The position numbers and the translations under genes are program-made. Below the pieces are notes generated by a model that saw nothing but the letters and a program-made list of their open reading frames with translations, was not told the origin of the DNA and searched no databases. Below, in pieces: positions 40,113 to 49,523 of a DNA stretch of 62,630 bases. Position 1 is the first letter of the stretch; the number at the start of each line of letters is the position of its first letter. This DNA comes from Bacteroidales bacterium (GTDB taxonomy: Bacteria; Bacteroidota; Bacteroidia; Bacteroidales; UBA932): contig JAFYME010000044.1 of assembly GCA_017556765.1 (NCBI GenBank), forward strand, positions 1 to 62,630, given 5' to 3'.

Positions 40113-41039
40113 ATGGATCAGCCAAAGATTGAGCGTCTACTCAGGCTCATGGTCATGATGACCGGAAATACAAATTCCACAATCGAAGATTTTGCACATT
40201 CTCTGAAAACGACTTCGCGTTCAGTTTACAGATACATCGACACTATCAGATCCAGTGGCTTTGTCGTTGAAAAAATGCGTAGCAACGTATATAAACTTGG
40301 AAAAATGCCACGCGGTTCAGTTGACTTCAGCAAACTTATTTACTTCTCTGAAGAAGAGGCACACATAATTAATTCATTAATCCACAACCTAGATAACACT
40401 AATCTTCTCAAGAGAAATCTGCAAAAGAAACTGGCCGCGTTATGCGAATATGTCACACCAGCCGAAATCATATGCGACAAAACGGCGTCAATCAAAGTGG
40501 AAGCTCTTGGCAATGCGATCTTTCACAAAAAATCTGTCATCTTAAGGAATTACGAATCAGCAAATTCCGACCATACTAGCGATCGGCTGATCGAACCTTT
40601 TGCCTTTTCTGCAAATTATATTGACATCTGGGGATACGATCTTGAAAAAGGAGAAAACAGGGTCTATAAAGTCTCCCGTATCGGGAATGTAGAAATAACA
40701 TCTGACTCATGGATAAATGAAGATGATCACAGAAAAGTAGAGGCAGATTGTTTCCGAATGAACGGAGAGACAGACATCCGAGTAAAGCTGCATTTAAGTC
40801 TTCGGGCGAAGAATCTGTTGGTTGAGGAATATCCTCTTGCAGAAAAAGATCTGAAACATCAAAAAGAGCATTGGACACTCGAGACAATTGTCCATGACAT
40901 GGCCGGAGTTGGAAGATTCGTCATAGGCCTAGCTGATGAAATCGAGATTTCAGATTCACCAGAATTGGAACAATACATTCATGACTATGCGCTCAGGCAC
41001 ATTATAAACAGAAAGCGAGACCCGGAGGCCCCACTTTAA
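40113..41039 (+). CDS. WYL-domain transcriptional regulator next to the CRISPR locus
   Basis: 308 residues from ATG at 40113; a TTG frame start at 40095 would overlap the promoter. An N-terminal winged helix (about 5-60, NSTIEDFAHSLKTTSRSVYRY) is followed by a WYL-type ligand-sensing domain (about 150-220, IEPFAFSANYIDIWGYDL, VYKVSRIGNVEIT) and a C-terminal extension (about 230-300). WYL proteins regulate several CRISPR-Cas and other defence loci, likely by sensing nucleic acids or nucleotides. Its stop codon lies beside the terminal hairpin of the opposing tracrRNA gene. More A/T-ending codons than genes to its left. Confidence 0.78.
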   Translation: MDQPKIERLLRLMVMMTGNTNSTIEDFAHSLKTTSRSVYRYIDTIRSSGFVVEKMRSNVYKLGKMPRGSVDFSKLIYFSEEEAHIINSLIHNLDNTNLLKRNLQKKLAALCEYVTPAEIICDKTASIKVEALGNAIFHKKSVILRNYESANSDHTSDRLIEPFAFSANYIDIWGYDLEKGENRVYKVSRIGNVEITSDSWINEDDHRKVEADCFRMNGETDIRVKLHLSLRAKNLLVEEYPLAEKDLKHQKEHWTLETIVHDMAGVGRFVIGLADEIEISDSPELEQYIHDYALRHIINRKRDPEAPL

Positions 41040-41085
41040 ATGTTTTCACAACGGAATAATCCTTATTGTGAATTGCTTCGAAATT
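41006..41085 (-). ncRNA. tracrRNA of the type II-C CRISPR-Cas9 system
   Basis: Read on the minus strand. An anti-repeat of 22 nt (41086-41065) is complementary to the 5' end of the crRNA repeat, with one single-base bulge and a terminal G-U pair. Then comes a nexus-like hairpin (GGA-TTAT-TCC) and a single-stranded GTTGTGAAAACA tract. The terminal hairpin at 41034-41015 has an 8-bp stem GTGGGGCC/GGTCTCGC with a TCCG loop, and a T-rich tail ends near 41006. The sequence after the anti-repeat resembles tracrRNA tails of Bacteroidetes II-C systems. Its length of about 80 nt is normal. The gene overlaps the 3' end of the WYL coding region in antisense. Confidence 0.85.
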
Positions 41086-41089
41086 TCTG

Positions 41090-41120
41090 CAAAGTTATGC
41101 ATTAGTTTGAGAAAAGCAAT
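41090..41120 (-). promoter_or_regulatory. tracrRNA promoter
   Basis: On the minus strand ATTG (41120-41117), 19 nt, then TAACTTTG (41097-41090): a near-perfect Bacteroidetes promoter. It predicts transcription from about 41085, exactly where the anti-repeat begins. Confidence 0.75.
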
Positions 41121-41161: not shown

Positions 41162-42169
41162 ATGGAATGCGAAAAGAAAGATATAATCATATATAGGACG
41201 CACGACGGAAAGGCATCAGTAGCTCTCTTTGCAAAGGACGGAAAGGTCTGGCTTAATCAAAAAAGCCTTGCAGAACTTTTTGCCACCTCTAAGCAATCCA
41301 TCAGCAGACATATAGCCAACATACTAAATGACAAAGAGTTAGAATCTGATTCAGTTGTCAAAGATTTTTTGACAACTGCCGAGGACGGAAAGAATTACAA
41401 GGTAACATTCTACTCTTTGGAAATGATTCTTGCAATTGGCTATAGAGTGCACAGCATAAGAGGAGTCCAATTTCGTCAATGGGCGACACAGCATCTTTCG
41501 GAATACCTGATAAAAGGATTCACAATGGACGACGAACGTCTTAAGAACCCTGATGGACGACCCGACTATTTCGATGAGCTTCTGGCTAGAATCCGCGACA
41601 TCAGAGCTTCAGAGAAAAGGTTCTATCAAAAGCTCAGGGAACTTTTCTCGCTCAGCAGTGACTACGAATCGCAAGAAAAAGCCACTCAGATGTTCTATGC
41701 CGAGACTCAAAACAAGCTCCTGTATGCTGTTACACATAAGACAGCGGCTGAAATCGTCCTGAATAGAGCTGATGCTGACAAACCTAATATGGGGCTGACA
41801 TCATGGAAAGGCTCCATTGTAAGAAAACAAGATATAATTATTGCCAAGAACTATCTCAGCAAGGATGAAATTGACACTCTTAACAGACTGACTACCATAT
41901 TCCTGGAAACAGCAGAACTTCACGTAAAAGAACGTAAGGATCTGACATTGGATTTCTGGAGAAGAAATGTAGATGCGATATTGACCCTTCAAGGTAAAGA
42001 AATTCTTGACAACAAAGGGCATATCACCAACCAACAGATGGAAGAGGCCGTCAAAGAAATATATGAACGTTTCGACACAAAAAGAAAGGCATACGAAGCA
42101 AGGCTTGCAGATGAAGATGACCTGAGACTTTTAGAAGAAATGGCAAAATACGGTAAGGACAACAGATAG
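41162..42169 (+). CDS. rhuM: RhuM-family protein, first gene of the cas9 operon
   Basis: 335 residues. The N-terminal half shows a helix-turn-helix-like segment (KVWLNQKSLAELFATSKQSI, about 30-50) and the RhuM/Bro-like core (VTFYSLEMILAIGYRVHSIRG, about 85-105; QFRQWATQHLSEYLIKGF). The C-terminal half is helical. RhuM proteins occur on pathogenicity islands and mobile elements; no activity is firmly assigned. It is separated from cas9 by 4 bp and read from the promoter opposite the tracrRNA, so it is made together with the Cas proteins. This suggests a CRISPR-linked accessory or regulatory role, which is inference. Confidence 0.78.
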   Translation: MECEKKDIIIYRTHDGKASVALFAKDGKVWLNQKSLAELFATSKQSISRHIANILNDKELESDSVVKDFLTTAEDGKNYKVTFYSLEMILAIGYRVHSIRGVQFRQWATQHLSEYLIKGFTMDDERLKNPDGRPDYFDELLARIRDIRASEKRFYQKLRELFSLSSDYESQEKATQMFYAETQNKLLYAVTHKTAAEIVLNRADADKPNMGLTSWKGSIVRKQDIIIAKNYLSKDEIDTLNRLTTIFLETAELHVKERKDLTLDFWRRNVDAILTLQGKEILDNKGHITNQQMEEAVKEIYERFDTKRKAYEARLADEDDLRLLEEMAKYGKDNR

Positions 42170-42173
42170 CATT

Positions 42174-45100
42174 ATGAAAAAGATACTTGGACTGGATTTG
42201 GGAACCAACAGCATCGGATGGGCTGTTGTAAATGAAGAGCATATAGAAGACACGTCATACCTTACCGGTATAGATGGTGCAGGCAGCAGAATAATACCGA
42301 TGGCTGCAGATCAATTAGGAGAGTTTGAAAAAGGGAACAGTGTATCACAGACAAAGGACAGAACTGGTTATAGAGGAACAAGAAGGCTGCGCGAGCGCTT
42401 TCTGTTAAGGCGTGAACGCCTGCACCGTACCTTGAGAGTTATGGGATTCCTACCGGAGCATTACGCCGCATCTCTTGATGAGTTCGGAAAATTTCATAAA
42501 GGAACAGAGCCTAAAATAGAATGGAGAAGAGCGGATAACGGTAAATATGAGTTCATATTTCAATCATCATTCAACGAAATGCTTGATGACTTCCAGGCAT
42601 TTCACCCTGAATTATGCGACAGGAAAATTCCTTCTGACTGGACATTATACTATTTGCGTAAAAAAGCTTTGACCAAGAAGATCTCTAAAGAAGAGCTTGC
42701 ATGGATTCTACTCAACTTCAACCAGAAGCGAGGATATTATCAGCTGCGTGGAGAAGATGACGTGGTTGACACTTCCAAAAAAGAGGAGTACATGAAACTT
42801 ACCGTCATCGATGTCATAGATAGCGGAGAGAAAAAAGGCAAAGCCACATGGTACAATGTCAAGCTGAACAACGGACTGATATACAGAAGAGCATCAGAGC
42901 AGCCATTGGATTGGATCGGGAAAGAAAAGGAATTCATTATTACCACCAAACTCGAAAAGGACGGTAGTGTCAAGAAAGACAAAGACGGACTTTCCCAGGT
43001 GTCTATACGCTCGCCCAAAGATGACGACTGGAACCTGCTGAAAAAACGTACTGAGTCGGATATAGAAGGTTCATGTAAGACTGTCGGAGAGTATATTTAT
43101 GACAACGTTCTCTCTAATCCTGGCCTTAAGATTATAGGCAAATTAGTAAGAACCATAGAACGCAAATACTACCGCGCCGAGCTTAAGGAAATCATTCGCA
43201 AGCAAAGCGAGTTTCATCCCGAACTATCTGACAAGACACTTTATGAAAAGTGTCTGAATGAATTGTACCCTAATAATGAAGCATATAGGAACAGTATTCT
43301 GGGAAAGGGCTTCATATACCTGCTTGCCGAAGACCTCATCTTCTACCAAAGACCTCTGAAGAGCAAAAAGCACCTCATCAGTAACTGTCCATATGAAACC
43401 AGAACATATCTTGACAAAGAGAGCGGAGAGCTGAAGACCGAGCCGATCAAATGCATCGCAAAGTCACACCCTCTGTTTCAGGAGTTCAGACTATGGCAAT
43501 TCATCAGCAACCTTAGGATTTACTCCAATGACGGCACTAATACAGATGTAACTGACCAATATCTCTGCACAATCAAAGACTGGGAAAAACTTTTTGAATT
43601 CTTTAACGACAAAAAAGATATAGACCAGGCGACATTCTTATCTAAATTCCTCGGACTTAAAAAAGTCGGAGATAAATTCCCTGTGCGATGGAACTATGTA
43701 GAAGACAAGAAATACCCTTGCAATAAGACCAGACATGAAATCTGCGCCAAGTTATCGAAAGAAGAATCCGGCAAGCTGACAGATGATCTCCTGGCTAAAA
43801 TCTGGCATCTCCTTTATTCGGTCAAGACCAAAGAAGAAATTGACGCAGTATTTTCAGATTCGAAAATCGGAACTGAAGGTATATACGACGAACTGTTGAA
43901 ACATTTCAGCAAAGAGTCTATTGAAAGAATCAAATCCATAAGAATGGAAGAGGAAGACTACGGTTCATATTCAGAAAAAGCGATCAAGAAACTTCTATCG
44001 CTGATGAGGCTGGGTAAATACTGGGCTCCAGATTCGATTGATTCCAGAACATCAGATAGAATCGCTAAAATTCTATCCGGGGAGTTTGATCCGGGCATTA
44101 AGGACAACATCAGACAAAGGGCTGCCGGCTTCACCTCCATTAACGATTTCCAAGGCCTTCCTGTATGGTTTGCATGCTACGTCGTATACGGCAGACATTC
44201 AGAAGGTAAAGAGGCAAGAAAATGGCACTGTCCTAAAGATATTGACTTCTTCTTAGCTGGGTTCAAGCAGCACTCGATGCGAAACCCGATAGTCGAGCAG
44301 GTTGTGACAGAAACACTGCGTACGGTTAGAGACATTTGGATAAAAACCGGACGTATTGATGAAATCCACATAGAGCTCGGTAGAGAACTGAAGAGCACAA
44401 AAGAACAGCGAGAACGTATCACGCGCCGCAATATAGAAAACGAAAATACTAATCAAAGAATCAGGACTTTGCTTACAGAGTTCTTTAATTCAGATTTCAA
44501 TATACATGGCAAACGTATAGAAGGAGTGCGACCACACTCTCCTTCGCAACAGGACACATTAAAGATTTATGAGGAAACCGTGCTCCAAAACGATAGAGAG
44601 AGAAATGATGAGATAAACAATATAATCAATAAGCTAAACTCAACTGACTCAGCAAAACGTCCTACAAAAGCAGAAATACTGAAGTATGCTCTTTGGCTGG
44701 ACCAGAAGTACTGCTCTCCATATACAGGGCAGCCGATTCCATTGGCTAAACTGTTTACACACGAGTATGAAATAGAGCACATCATTCCGCAGTCACGATA
44801 CTTTGATGACTCTTTCCAAAATAAAGTCATATGTGAAGCAGAGGTAAACAAACTCAAGGACAGGTTGTTAGGCAAAGAGTTCATAAATAAGCATCATGGT
44901 GAGATTGTAAGATGCACAAGCGGCAGAACCGTGACCATACAATCTATAGAAGGTTACGAAGAGTTCGTGAAGAAACATTATTCAGGAAACCGCGCCAAAC
45001 TACGTAATCTGCTTCTCGAAGATATACCTGACGGCTTCATAGAACGACAGATGAATGACACACGTTACATCAGTAGATATATCATGGGATTATTGTCAAA

Positions 45101-46736
45101 TATCGTTCGAGAAGAGATAGCTCCAGGGGTATTTGAAGAAGAAGCGACATCAAAGAATCTTATTGCCTGCAACGGCAGCATAACTACCCGCCTCAAGAAA
45201 GACTGGGGACTTAATGATGTATGGAACAGTATCATCCTTCCACGATTCATATGCCTCAACGAGATCTGCAAAACAGACAGATTCACAAGCAAGAATTCTG
45301 AAGGTCATACTATCCCTGACATGCCCGACGAACTACTTAGAGGATTCAGTAAAAAGCGAATTGACCACAGGCATCATGCAATGGACGCCATAGTAATCGC
45401 TTGCGCCACAAGAAGCCATATCCATCTTTTGAACAATGAGGCAGCAAAATCTTCGAACAAGGCAATAAGGCACCAGCTTTCGCACAAGCTGAGACGCTAT
45501 GAGAAGATTGTCATCAACGGAGAAGAAAGACAGGTTGCAAAAGAATTCCTGAAACCTTGGGAGACATTCACTCAGGACGTGCATAAGATTCTTAAAGAGA
45601 TAATCGTCAGCTTTAAACAAAACTTAAGGGTCATCAATAAAGCCTCAAATAAATATATATCATACTACGACGAAAACGGGAATCTTCGCCTTGATAAATC
45701 TGGTCTTCCTGTCAAAGGAATGACAACACAGAAGACTAATGCGAACTGGTGGGCTATCAGAAAGCCGCTGCACAAGGACACTGTATTTGCTAAAGTACAC
45801 CTGAGAAAGGTCAAGGAGGTGCGCCTCTCACTTGCATTATCATGCGTAGATACCATTGTAGATAAAGAACTAAAGAAAGAAATCAAGAGACTTCTGAGCA
45901 TGGGTTATGATGAGAAACGCATCAAGAAGTTCTTCACTGATGGAGAGAATAAAGACATATGGGCCGAGTTCAATCCGAATAAGATAAAGGTATATTATTT
46001 TACCGAGGACACTTTTGCTACAAGGAAAGCTCTTGACGATAGTTTTGATGAGAAGAAAATCAAGACATCGGTTACAGATTCCGGTATACAGAAAATACTT
46101 CTCAAGCACCTGGAGGAAAACAAAGGAGACCCCAAGGTTGCATTCAGTCCAGATGGCATTGAAAAGATGAATGCAAACCTGTATAATCTCAACGGAGGGA
46201 AAAAACACCAGCCGATATACAAAGTTCGTATATATGAAGCAGCCAGCAAATTCGCAGTTGGCAGAAGTGGCAACAAAGCAGACAAATTCGTTGAGGCTGC
46301 CAAAGGTACTAACTTATATTTTGGCGTATATGCTGATGAAAATGGTGTACGCACATTCGGAACTGTAGCACTGAACGAAGTAATTGAGCGTTTGAAACAG
46401 GGGTTATCACCTGTACCGGAAACTGATGAAAATAATGCAAAATTACTATTCTTCCTTTCACCTAATGACTTGGTATATGTGCTGACTGAGGATGAAATCA
46501 AAAATGGAGTAACAGATTTAAATGTCAATCAAATATTCAAAATAGTATCATTTACTAATAAACGCTTGTACGCTCTCCCATATTATGTAAGTAGAAGCAT
46601 TGTTGACAAAATAGAATACACTCAGCTCAACAAAATCGAGTTTACATTAGAGAAAGAAGTCTGTGTACCTATCAAAGTCAACAGACTCGGCCAAATAACC
46701 TATTTAGGAATCGAACATATGCCCAACTCGAAGTAA
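42174..46736 (+). CDS. cas9: Cas9 endonuclease, type II-C
   Basis: 1520 residues, at the large end for II-C. RuvC-I at the N-terminus (ILGLDLGTNSIGWAV, catalytic D8); arginine-rich bridge helix about 63-93; REC lobe about 95-690; RuvC-II with E734 in IHIELGREL; HNH with YEIEHIIPQSRYFDDS (H869) and N892; RuvC-III with HRHHAMDAIVIA (H1068, D1071); WED and PAM-interacting C-terminus from about 1110. All catalytic residues are intact, so it should cut DNA guided by crRNA:tracrRNA. Start ATG at 42174 is 4 bp after rhuM; cas1 follows 6 bp after the stop. A/T-rich codons set it apart from the flanking metabolic genes. Confidence 0.95.
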   Translation: MKKILGLDLGTNSIGWAVVNEEHIEDTSYLTGIDGAGSRIIPMAADQLGEFEKGNSVSQTKDRTGYRGTRRLRERFLLRRERLHRTLRVMGFLPEHYAASLDEFGKFHKGTEPKIEWRRADNGKYEFIFQSSFNEMLDDFQAFHPELCDRKIPSDWTLYYLRKKALTKKISKEELAWILLNFNQKRGYYQLRGEDDVVDTSKKEEYMKLTVIDVIDSGEKKGKATWYNVKLNNGLIYRRASEQPLDWIGKEKEFIITTKLEKDGSVKKDKDGLSQVSIRSPKDDDWNLLKKRTESDIEGSCKTVGEYIYDNVLSNPGLKIIGKLVRTIERKYYRAELKEIIRKQSEFHPELSDKTLYEKCLNELYPNNEAYRNSILGKGFIYLLAEDLIFYQRPLKSKKHLISNCPYETRTYLDKESGELKTEPIKCIAKSHPLFQEFRLWQFISNLRIYSNDGTNTDVTDQYLCTIKDWEKLFEFFNDKKDIDQATFLSKFLGLKKVGDKFPVRWNYVEDKKYPCNKTRHEICAKLSKEESGKLTDDLLAKIWHLLYSVKTKEEIDAVFSDSKIGTEGIYDELLKHFSKESIERIKSIRMEEEDYGSYSEKAIKKLLSLMRLGKYWAPDSIDSRTSDRIAKILSGEFDPGIKDNIRQRAAGFTSINDFQGLPVWFACYVVYGRHSEGKEARKWHCPKDIDFFLAGFKQHSMRNPIVEQVVTETLRTVRDIWIKTGRIDEIHIELGRELKSTKEQRERITRRNIENENTNQRIRTLLTEFFNSDFNIHGKRIEGVRPHSPSQQDTLKIYEETVLQNDRERNDEINNIINKLNSTDSAKRPTKAEILKYALWLDQKYCSPYTGQPIPLAKLFTHEYEIEHIIPQSRYFDDSFQNKVICEAEVNKLKDRLLGKEFINKHHGEIVRCTSGRTVTIQSIEGYEEFVKKHYSGNRAKLRNLLLEDIPDGFIERQMNDTRYISRYIMGLLSNIVREEIAPGVFEEEATSKNLIACNGSITTRLKKDWGLNDVWNSIILPRFICLNEICKTDRFTSKNSEGHTIPDMPDELLRGFSKKRIDHRHHAMDAIVIACATRSHIHLLNNEAAKSSNKAIRHQLSHKLRRYEKIVINGEERQVAKEFLKPWETFTQDVHKILKEIIVSFKQNLRVINKASNKYISYYDENGNLRLDKSGLPVKGMTTQKTNANWWAIRKPLHKDTVFAKVHLRKVKEVRLSLALSCVDTIVDKELKKEIKRLLSMGYDEKRIKKFFTDGENKDIWAEFNPNKIKVYYFTEDTFATRKALDDSFDEKKIKTSVTDSGIQKILLKHLEENKGDPKVAFSPDGIEKMNANLYNLNGGKKHQPIYKVRIYEAASKFAVGRSGNKADKFVEAAKGTNLYFGVYADENGVRTFGTVALNEVIERLKQGLSPVPETDENNAKLLFFLSPNDLVYVLTEDEIKNGVTDLNVNQIFKIVSFTNKRLYALPYYVSRSIVDKIEYTQLNKIEFTLEKEVCVPIKVNRLGQITYLGIEHMPNSK

Positions 46737-46742
46737 TTCATT

Positions 46743-47663
46743 ATGATAAAACGTACATTATACTTCGGCAATCCGGCTTATCTTTCTTTAAAGATGAAGC
46801 AGCTGATGGTACGGATGCCTCAAGGTGATGACGGAGATCTTCCGACAGATGAAGAAATCGTAAGGACATTACCGATTGAGGATCTTGGAGTCATAATACT
46901 TGACAACAAGCAGATTACCATCACTCATGGTGCGATGGAGGCGCTTCTTGAAAACAATTGTGCGATAATCACTTGCGACTCCAAAAGAATGCCAGTGGGA
47001 TTGATGCTACCTTTGGCTGGAAATACGGTGCAGAACGAGCGTTTCAGGAGCCAGATAGACTCCTCGCTTCCCTTGCGCAAACAGCTTTGGCAGCAAACAA
47101 TTGAAGCAAAAATCCGCAATCAAGCCGCTGTGCTTCAATATGTAACAGGTGAAAAGCACAATAATATGCTCAAATGGTCCGAATCTATCCGAAGTGGAGA
47201 TACAGACAATATGGAAGCAAGAGCTGCGGTATATTATTGGAAGACCATTTTCCCGGATAATCCGTATTTTGTAAGAGATCATGATGCAGAAGGTCCCAAT
47301 GCTTTGTTGAACTATGGATATGCTATTTTAAGAGCTGTAGTTGCCAGAGCCTTAGTGGGAAGCGGTCTGTTGCCCACATTAGGCATTCATCATCACAACC
47401 GTTACAATGCATATTGTCTTGCAGATGATATAATGGAGCCATATCGACCATATGTGGATAAATTAGTGACGGAATTGCTGGATGAAGATGCGACTGGAAA
47501 ACTTAATGCAAAGGTTAAAGTCAAGCTATTGAATATTCCTGTGATAGAAGTACTTATCAACGGAAAAAGAAGTCCTTTGATGATTGCTGTATCACAGACT
47601 ACAACTTCGTTGGTAAAATGTTTCAGAGGTGAGAGCAGGAGGCTGACATATCCGGAAATGTAA
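46743..47663 (+). CDS. cas1: Cas1 integrase, type II-C
   Basis: 306 residues with N-terminal beta domain (about 1-75) and helical catalytic domain. Metal-binding residues: E158 in EARAAVYYW, the histidines of GIHHHNRYN (216-218), and D229/E232 in LADDIMEPYRP. With Cas2 it integrates new spacers. It is intact, suggesting an acquisition-competent locus. Six bp after cas9, 3 bp before cas2. Confidence 0.94.
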   Translation: MIKRTLYFGNPAYLSLKMKQLMVRMPQGDDGDLPTDEEIVRTLPIEDLGVIILDNKQITITHGAMEALLENNCAIITCDSKRMPVGLMLPLAGNTVQNERFRSQIDSSLPLRKQLWQQTIEAKIRNQAAVLQYVTGEKHNNMLKWSESIRSGDTDNMEARAAVYYWKTIFPDNPYFVRDHDAEGPNALLNYGYAILRAVVARALVGSGLLPTLGIHHHNRYNAYCLADDIMEPYRPYVDKLVTELLDEDATGKLNAKVKVKLLNIPVIEVLINGKRSPLMIAVSQTTTSLVKCFRGESRRLTYPEM

Positions 47664-47666
47664 TAA

Positions 47667-47999
<333 letters not shown>

Positions 48000-48031
48000 A
48001 AATAGAAATACAAAATCATCTACTATAACGT

Positions 48032-48060
48032 AAAAAATCCGGTATTACACCGGATTTTTT
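48032..48060. terminator. Bidirectional terminator between cas2 and the CRISPR array
   Basis: Perfect 12-bp stem AAAAAATCCGGT (48032-48043) with ACCGGATTTTTT (48049-48060) and a 5-nt loop. With T-runs on both strands it can stop the cas operon from the left and crRNA transcripts from the right. Confidence 0.8.
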
Positions 48061-48114
48061 AAATTCTGACAACCCATGATAACCATTTAACTGTCAACAC
48101 ATTACCCATATCCT

Positions 48115-48941
48115 GTTGTTATCAGTCTGTCAAAGATATAAATTTCGAAAGCAATTCACAACTAAGACAGTTTCAAAACTCGATGCAAAAATGTTGTTAT
48201 CAGTCTGTCAAAGATATAAATTTCGAAAGCAATTCACAACCCGGCTTGGGCTTGTTATTCGCGATAACAGGTTGTTATCAGTCTGTCAAAGATATAAATT
48301 TCGAAAGCAATTCACAACGCGATAGATTGCGATTTGTACTCAGAATGGGTTGTTATCAGTCTGTCAAAGATATAAATTTCGAAAGCAATTCACAACAAAC
48401 GCTCAGGTCGGTGAGCTTGCATCTCGGTTGTTATCAGTCTGTCAAAGATATAAATTTCGAAAGCAATTCACAACCCTCCGGGATTCCCCCTACCTTTCTC
48501 AATTGTTGTTATCAGTCTGTCAAAGATATAAATTTCGAAAGCAATTCACAACTATGGCAACTTTTGCGGGATGTACATCGTTGTTGTTATCAGTCTGTCA
48601 AAGATATAAATTTCGAAAGCAATTCACAACGGTTTGACTTTTTCATTGTCATTTGGTCAGTTGTTATCAGTCTGTCAAAGATATAAATTTCGAAAGCAAT
48701 TCACAACAGTCTGCACAGGCTGATTGAGATGATGCCGGTTGTTATCAGTCTGTCAAAGATATAAATTTCGAAAGCAATTCACAACATACCAACAGCCCTT
48801 ATAGTGGGTGAAAGCGTTGTTATCAGTCTGTCAAAGATATAAATTTCGAAAGCAATTCACAACCCTACAAAAATACATAAATAGCTGATTTTCGTTGTTA
48901 TCAGTCTGTCAAAGATATAAATTTCGAAAGCAATTCACAAC
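48115..48941 (-). CRISPR. CRISPR array, 11 repeats of 48 bp, 10 spacers
   Basis: Eleven 48-bp repeats that I find identical start at 48115, 48193, 48271, 48349, 48427, 48505, 48583, 48660, 48738, 48816 and 48894. Nine spacers are 30 bp and one (48631-48659) is 29 bp. The repeat reads GTTGTTATCAG...CAATTCACAAC on the plus strand. The functional crRNA direction is minus, because the tracrRNA anti-repeat matches the minus-strand 5' end GTTGTGAATTGC, the usual start of Bacteroidetes II-C repeats. On that strand every repeat contains GTTG, 20 nt, TATCTTTG, a Bacteroidetes promoter, so each unit can start its own transcript toward cas2. Confidence 0.97.
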
Positions 48942-48975: not shown

Positions 48976-49001
48976 AAAAGGACAGCCGAAGCTGCCCTTT
49001 T
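48976..49001 (-). terminator. Terminator of the two-gene mini-cassette
   Basis: Stem AAAAGGACAGC (48976-48986) with GCTGCCCTTTT (48991-49001), CGAA loop and one mismatch; on the minus strand it is followed by seven T. It isolates the array from transcription coming from the right. Confidence 0.65.
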
Positions 49002-49172: not shown

Positions 49173-49325
49173 TTATTCAATAGTATCCTTGATCGCGTTG
49201 ATCATTATGTCAGGCACCAGCCTGTTCAGTTTGCGTGCCACATCCGACTTCAAATATCCGTACACATACTTATTGTATATCGGTGCATACCGTTTCTTCC
49301 TCTTGCCGTTCCTGCCCTTCTTCAT
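49173..49325 (-). CDS. Small basic protein, probably 5'-truncated mobile-element gene
   Basis: From ATG at 49325 the product has 50 residues (MKKGRNGKRKKRYAPIYNKY ...), very basic at the start. The frame stays open to 49451, and codons before the ATG also look coding (IELSYPIHIRFLD), but no ATG/GTG/TTG start is found at the natural place. The original start appears to have been lost where the degenerate CRISPR repeat joins. It resembles small proteins of Bacteroidetes plasmids or phages in general style only; I do not recognise a named family. Confidence 0.4.
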   Translation of the reverse strand: MKKGRNGKRKKRYAPIYNKYVYGYLKSDVARKLNRLVPDIMINAIKDTIE

Positions 49326-49383
49326 GTCGAGGAAGCGGATGTGTATCGGGTAGCTCAGCTCAATGCGTGTGCAGTTCGGTTGT

Positions 49384-49414
49384 AAAGATAAAAATTTCGA
49401 AAGCAATTCACAAT
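49384..49414 (-). repeat. Lone degenerate CRISPR half-repeat
   Basis: 31 nt matching the crRNA-handle half of the array repeat at 29 positions, 443 bp beyond the last true repeat. On the minus strand it keeps TTG, 20 nt, TATCTTTA, so it retains a weakened copy of the repeat promoter pointing into the mini-cassette. The plus strand lacks the nexus found in the real tracrRNA, so I do not call it a second tracrRNA. Confidence 0.75.
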
Positions 49415-49523
49415 AGGTTTCTTTTTGACTTTTGGAAACTAATTTCCACATTTCTCGTTTGAGATTGTCTTACCTATTATTTCCAGTAACGAAGATCATT
49501 ATCTGATGATCAAGGATGTTTAG

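Follow-up and report, generated by a model that had tools for sequence, protein, structure and literature searches.

How the crRNAs of a type II-C CRISPR-Cas9 system are transcribed in a Bacteroidota bacterium, and from which promoters, is the question raised by the locus described here, found within a stretch of 62,630 nucleotides (hereafter, the window). The plus strand of the window carries a RhuM-family gene, cas9, cas1 and cas2, in this order, followed by a CRISPR array. This Bacteroidota locus is a CRISPR-Cas9 system of type II-C: cas9 (42174..46736, 1520 aa, with Pfam matches to RuvC_III, HNH_4 and bridge-helix), cas1 (46743..47663) and cas2 (47667..47999), the last two also with Pfam matches, lie side by side up to the array, and a tracrRNA with an anti-repeat, as expected of type II-C, is present as well. 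No csn2 or cas4 was found among the genes of the locus scanned with profiles, which were the cas genes and three neighbours: the RhuM-family gene, a gene with a WYL domain on the far side of the tracrRNA, and a fragment of a small ORF, for which no Pfam match was obtained. The RhuM-family gene (41162-42169), placed between the tracrRNA and cas9, stops 4 nt ahead of the latter, and because of this short distance both genes may share a common transcript. A scan of the window with Rfam gave two matches, both under the gathering score.

The array itself (48115..48941, read from the minus strand) is made of 11 identical repeats of 48 nt, which start at positions 48115, 48193, 48271, 48349, 48427, 48505, 48583, 48660, 48738, 48816 and 48894, and 10 spacers of 30 nt, except for one of 29 nt. 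The tracrRNA (41005..41086, minus strand) sits ahead of the RhuM-family gene, and comprises an anti-repeat (41086-41066), a conserved tail (TAAGGATTATTCCGTTGTGAAAACAT) and a terminator hairpin (41037-41012). Since this anti-repeat is complementary to the minus-strand repeat, the crRNAs are read from the minus strand, towards cas2, as an earlier reading of the sequence alone had proposed.

The possibility of a promoter in each repeat has precedents. In the type II-C system of Campylobacter jejuni each crRNA has its own promoter, located in the preceding repeat (Dugar 2013, PMC3656092), and per-repeat crRNA promoters were also described in Neisseria meningitidis (Zhang 2013, as cited in PMC7038990). 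Within the same phylum as our window, a repeat-encoded promoter was proposed for the II-C array of Flavobacterium columnare, where eight RNA reads run towards the leader (Hoikkala 2021, PMC8092290), and for that of Flavobacterium psychrophilum, which is transcribed (PMC10309648), although for these arrays only a TTG is named in the repeats, 33 or 35 bp before the spacer, and no -7 box. A survey of more than 650 II-C systems concerned with extraneous crRNAs describes each repeat as having its own promoter (Feussner 2025, PMC12080349); its main text has neither words beginning with Bacteroid or Flavobacter nor the motif TAnnTTTG. The latter is the -7 element of the housekeeping promoters recognized by sigma-ABfr in Bacteroides, which also show a TTTG at about -33 (PMC7366714). 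The promoters of that study precede genes and sRNAs, whereas the boxes considered below lie inside CRISPR repeats, and the B. thetaiotaomicron studied there has no annotated CRISPR array.

The minus-strand repeat of the window, GTTGTGAATTGCTTTCGAAATTTATATCTTTGACAGACTGATAACAAC, shows a TTG at positions 2-4, followed by 20 nt and a box TATCTTTG at positions 25-32. All 11 repeats thus match the TAnnTTTG of the sigma-ABfr -7 element, with a TTG at N20, inside the range of about 19-21 nt expected between the TTG or TTTG and the box of a sigma-ABfr promoter. The fuller TTTG is absent from the window repeat, which has GTTG instead. In the crRNA sense, the putative promoter of repeat 1 spans 48910..48940 (TTG at 48940-48938, box at 48917-48910, predicted start at about 48906-48904), and the same TTG-N20-TATCTTTG arrangement recurs on the minus strand at 48832..48862, 48754..48784, 48676..48706, 48599..48629, 48521..48551, 48443..48473, 48365..48395, 48287..48317 and 48209..48239 (repeats 2 to 10), and at 48131..48161 in repeat 11, the leader-proximal one, which has no spacer after it. 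The sequence-only reading had described exactly this, a GTTG, 20 nt and an exact TAnnTTTG box per repeat, and its details hold in 11 out of 11 copies. Of the 14 instances of TTG-N20-TANNTTTG in the window, 11 belong to the array, whereas shuffles predict 0.54 (sd 0.78) for the whole; for a single repeat, composition shuffles yield TTG-N19..21-TAnnTTTG in 0.1% of cases and the box alone in 4.1%. A sigma-70 scan of the window showed no excess (26 sites for 21.5 expected). The box ends 16 nt ahead of the end of the repeat, which finishes in ACAAC, and the window repeat lacks a -10 element at its 3′ end of the Campylobacter and Neisseria kind. Because the 11 repeats are copies of one sequence, the evidential weight falls on conservation among relatives and not on the array of the window.

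To this end, the Cas1 of the window was matched against genomes of the phylum (63 matches in 395) and of the order (141 in 393, own genome included), and 140 cas1-centred stretches were taken from relatives. In 123 of the 141 sources, window included, the search yielded candidate arrays, although a few of these were short and spurious. After orientation by the handle alone, with the box ignored, there were 124 arrays with a consensus of at least 36 nt and 115 distinct repeats, and 121 arrays entered the later steps (set 1). Among the 92 distinct repeats of at least 44 nt (44-48), TAnnTTTG was present in 60 and TTG-N17..23-TAnnTTTG in 59; neither occurred on the reverse strand, and dinucleotide shuffles gave 6.5 boxes (maximum 12) and 0.8 full motifs (maximum 4). 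In three of the 60 only 7 nt separate the box from the repeat end, and matches so far back are possibly due to chance. A second set, formed by the best 80 loci of a scan based on Cas1 alignments, mostly from Bacteroidales or Bacteroidia, gave arrays in 63 of these 80 loci with the same array finder, and its new distinct long repeats carry the full motif in 46 of 50 cases (0 on the reverse strand), with two arrays of short consensus (37 and 40 nt) excluded from the count. Set 2 shares genomes with set 1, so identical repeats were removed; both lean to the order of the window, and the repeats share ancestry, so that counts of distinct repeats are not independent. The nearest relative among the set-2 loci listed, L194, had no array in the stretch examined.

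The distance between both elements mostly differs from the 19-21 nt that the sequence-only reading had put forward for testing: among the 60 boxed repeats of set 1, N18 (26) and N19 (21) account for 47, followed by N20 (6), N21 (3) and N22 (3), while the N20 of the window coincides with the peak of the set-1 tracrRNA promoters (see below). The GTTG highlighted in that reading does begin almost all the long repeats. It also pairs with the tracrRNA, and no -33 motif could be recognized in the promoters of Flavobacterium johnsoniae (PMC7366714), so that the -33 TTG counts as weak evidence; it may serve tracrRNA pairing or integration instead.

Outside the long repeats and the order of the window the box is scarcer. 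The 21 distinct repeats of 36 nt show it in three cases, and the full motif in one. Several long repeats from outside the order keep a TAnnTT with a relaxed end. In loci L054-L061, which belong to other families, the repeats of 45-46 nt mostly have TTCTTTG replacing TAnnTTTG, and some of their tracrRNA genes deviate too (TATGTTTC, TATGTTGC), hinting at the use of another promoter code. In L250, L253, L257 and L268, from Bacteroidaceae or Prevotellaceae bins, TTCATCTTTG or TTCGTCTTTG is found, in which the strict box is absent and TCTTTG is kept. The idea that repeats are long in order to house a promoter was discarded, given that in several 36-nt repeats a box-like element lies about as far from the 5′ end as in the long ones, and that the extra nucleotides of long repeats fall behind the box.

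The ends of the arrays tell which repeats are the newest. On the crRNA strand, the repeat at the 3′ end is free of mismatches in all the set-1 arrays listed and in 54 of 55 among the best 80 loci of set 2, and because the intact repeat marks the leader side, as stated for II-C systems (PMC12080349), the leader lies at the 3′ end of the crRNA strand, in agreement with the orientation derived from the tracrRNA. At the opposite end, the oldest repeat is cut from the handle side in 29 of the 75 set-1 long-repeat arrays with enough flank, and in 10 of 36 among the best 80 loci of set 2 (one further match of 8 nt there, in L264, fell below the score cut and was dropped). The cut falls at positions 6-29 in 38 of the 39 cases. 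Where the consensus is boxed, the cut oldest repeat keeps the box in 22 of 29 cases and breaks it in seven. In 357 II-C systems, the oldest repeats were reported to be mutated mostly in the first 15 nt, and it was suggested that they may need to stay as promoters, although avoiding a useless crRNA gives a second reason for their decay (PMC12080349). With this other published reason and seven broken boxes, the cut oldest repeats were rejected as a decisive promoter test, and they offer weak support to a promoter in the repeat.

One alternative would be a single long pre-crRNA, transcribed from an outside promoter or by read-through and converted into crRNAs by RNase III, with the box as a by-product. 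This is the type II-A arrangement (PMC12080349), and for Riemerella a promoter was proposed in the leader, while the repeats were reported to have none (PMC5006608). In our window, however, a terminator hairpin with a T run (48976..49001, minus strand; -16 kcal/mol, z -5.0) points into the array and ends, in the crRNA direction, about 30 nt ahead of the first repeat, so that there is no space for a whole -33/-7 promoter in between. On the leader side, the interval between cas2 and the array (48000..48114) holds another hairpin (~48031-48060) with T/A runs on both strands (z -4.7 and -4.8). Terminators on both sides of the array had been read from the sequence, and both hairpins fold better than shuffles. 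A simple terminator scan of the window shows no excess (9 versus 9.7 expected) and lists, of these two flanking hairpins, only that at 49001-48976; within the array there is one weak terminator-like site on the minus strand, in a spacer (48416-48401). Among relatives, a search restricted to this one promoter class and to the 150 nt of 5′ flank found the full motif in 2 of 74 set-1 arrays, against 8 on the reverse strand, and the box alone in 9, against 16; for the best 80 loci of set 2 the figures were 1 of 34 (reverse 1) and 6 of 34 (reverse 5). Strict outside promoters are thus rare and no commoner than on the reverse strand. Moreover, the leader lies downstream on the crRNA strand, and altogether we consider transcription from outside the array unlikely. 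The terminator of the window, like the cut oldest repeats of its relatives, fits the II-C survey, where terminators are said to be able to insulate arrays, while in that same survey upstream terminators were no commoner than in other intergenic regions (11% versus 12%; PMC12080349).

Upstream of the array there is also a solitary repeat fragment in crRNA sense (49384..49413, minus strand), 97% identical to repeat positions 2-31, which spans from the TTG to TATCTTT and has lost the tail. It was rejected as a tracrRNA, since it is in crRNA sense, has no tracrRNA tail and is in frame with a shortened gene, and the true tracrRNA lies elsewhere. The fragment is in frame with the front of a small ORF (49173-49451), whose counterpart in L192, a relative from the same genus, shows similarity only from residue 28 onwards. 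The next ORF in L192 resembles, by reading and not by profile, a phage tape-measure protein, and for this reason the array may adjoin a phage remnant; the array flank gave no match in a plasmid collection, nor did the small ORF in a phage collection. Solitary copies upstream of arrays occur as well in L116 (7270-7301) and L139 (3819-3849), both in crRNA sense, which keep positions 1 to 30/31 and end at the box like the fragment of the window.

Further evidence comes from the tracrRNA genes. The tracrRNA of the window is preceded by a putative promoter of the same kind (41090..41119, minus strand), TTG-N19-TAACTTTG, with the TTG at 41119-41117 and the box at 41097-41090. In relatives, tracrRNA genes were located by the conserved tail in 80 of the 121 set-1 arrays, and a TAnnTTTG stands just before the anti-repeat in 53 of these 80, and in 43 of 45 among the best 80 loci of set 2. 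The spacing to the TTG was N20 in 19, N19 in 7 and N18 in 4 of the 53 boxed genes of set 1, and N19 and N20 in 14 each of the 43 from the best 80 loci of set 2; most repeats, with N18-N19, are therefore shorter in this respect than the N20 peak of the set-1 tracrRNA promoters. The distance from the tracrRNA box to the first paired tracrRNA base is 3-5 nt in 40 of 52 loci, and from this geometry, together with the naming of the -7 element, we infer a transcription start in the window some 11-13 nt before the spacer. Within the order, the strict box is found in 46 of 52 tracrRNA genes and in 45 of 52 repeats, and in the other long-repeat loci in 6 of 22 and 4 of 22, so the expectation that related repeats would keep the box holds mainly within the order, and beyond it the strict box is mostly absent. 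This association between both boxes is visible only as a contrast between clades, with no significant link within groups (Fisher p 1.0 in the order, 0.29 in the other long-repeat loci).

The anti-repeat pairs with positions 2 to ~24 of the repeat. Among the 68 long-repeat loci of set 1 above the anti-repeat score cut, 44 are boxed, and none of these shows pairing beyond the fourth letter of the box. For the best 80 loci of set 2, at most three box letters are paired in 36 of 40, and in the other four the anti-repeat alignment runs 7-11 nt into or past the box. With both sets taken together, the crRNA:tracrRNA duplex does not reach the TTTG in 80 of 84 loci, and pairing with the tracrRNA does not account for the box.

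A different function for the box, as a DNA motif for Cas1-Cas2 integration or as an RNA feature of the repeat, would account for the conservation seen outside the handle, which falls on the repeat ends and on the box. Yet the same 8-mer grammar, with free nn, precedes the tracrRNA genes; the box stands at a fixed distance from neither end of the repeat, because it starts mostly at positions 23-27 with mostly 14-17 nt behind it (55/60); the oldest repeat, where integration does not take place, often retains it; and a single repeat shows no folding advantage over shuffles (z -0.7). These observations make such a role very improbable.

Substitution rates were obtained by parsimony on the Cas1 tree, with a repeat alignment built from sequence only. 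In 68 loci of the order, the fixed positions of the box changed 6, 8, 1, 7, 6 and 10 times and the free nn 11 and 13 times, while the eleven scored columns right behind the box changed 18-28 times each, and two columns ahead of it 11 and 16 times. In all 94 long-repeat loci, the corresponding numbers were 11, 14, 2, 10, 14 and 23 for the fixed positions, 18 and 23 for nn, and 23-36 behind. The last G of the box, with 10 changes in the order loci, is hardly below nn, and in the 26 long-repeat loci from outside the order the A and G columns of the box are not conserved; some of the changes are whole-box shifts caused by indels, with the motif kept elsewhere. The box thus changes more slowly than the sequence behind it, and the proposal that II-C repeats would retain the box while other positions drift is borne out for the positions behind. 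That the box is a functionless accident inherited from a common ancestral repeat is hardly credible, for even if TATCTTTG dominates, with TC at nn in 48 of 60 as common ancestry would predict, the columns behind it, of equal ancestry, changed 18-28 times against 1-10 at the fixed positions, and the nn takes nine different forms next to an unaltered TA and TTTG, although a few of these may be chance matches located further along the repeat.

These data are best read as a working sigma-ABfr promoter in every repeat, a very probable interpretation in our opinion: the motif and its strand, its conservation, its independence from pairing, the grammar shared with tracrRNA promoters and the rarity of strict outside promoters all point to it, and the interpretation first made from the sequence alone is supported at that same level of evidence. 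The promoter activity, the sigma factor, the start site and the processing steps are predictions of this model. The first ~23 nt of the repeat would be the crRNA handle that pairs with the tracrRNA, with the -33 element (TTG) inside it; the middle would hold the -7 box (TAnnTTTG), and the last ~16 nt would include the start site and the bases transcribed first. Bound to each repeat, RNA polymerase would initiate some 4-6 nt past the box, 11-13 nt before the spacer, and the transcript would pass through the spacer into the next handle, where the tracrRNA would pair and RNase III would cut. Transcription would proceed towards the leader, away from the shielding terminator.

The comparison with Neisseria-type repeats made in the sequence-only reading was a fair one: as in Campylobacter and Neisseria, the promoter would reside in the repeat ahead of each crRNA, with no single leader promoter. 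The architecture differs, however. In C. jejuni, the repeat terminates at its 3′ end exactly with the extended -10 element (GGTAAAAT), and the RNA starts at spacer position 5, while RNase III and the tracrRNA make the 3′ end of the crRNA (PMC3656092), so one cut completes it because the start lies in the spacer. In our window, a -33/-7 promoter would occupy the middle of the repeat, and with a predicted start inside the repeat, 11-13 nt of repeat, and whatever spacer is in excess, would need either trimming or tolerance. Promoters in each repeat, the TTG half of the motif in Flavobacterium, terminators around II-C arrays and decayed oldest repeats are all published. What seems new, as far as open-licence papers show, is a complete promoter housed in the long repeats of Bacteroidota, together with its conservation and with a start predicted to fall ~11-13 nt ahead of the spacer; we found no description in the open-licence literature of a complete TAnnTTTG promoter within Bacteroidota repeats.

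A tentative extension of this model, for which we would not go as far as an even chance, is that II-C arrays of Bacteroidota consist of individual crRNA genes in a row, every one of them with its own full sigma-ABfr promoter that starts transcription within the repeat. Since all these promoters would point to the leader and no strong terminator separates them, read-through would accumulate and the newest spacer would be the most transcribed. If true, the gradient of spacer transcription would be the reverse of the decay expected from a distal promoter, and the presence of handle and promoter in a single 48-nt word would explain why the middle of the repeat drifts so little. In any case, the one-promoter-per-repeat design of type II-C systems would be written here in the different housekeeping sigma code of the Bacteroidota, with predicted exact 5′ ends for the crRNAs. 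The genera concerned include Bacteroides, Phocaeicola, Prevotella and Alistipes, in whose repeats searches based on other promoter consensus sequences could miss such promoters.
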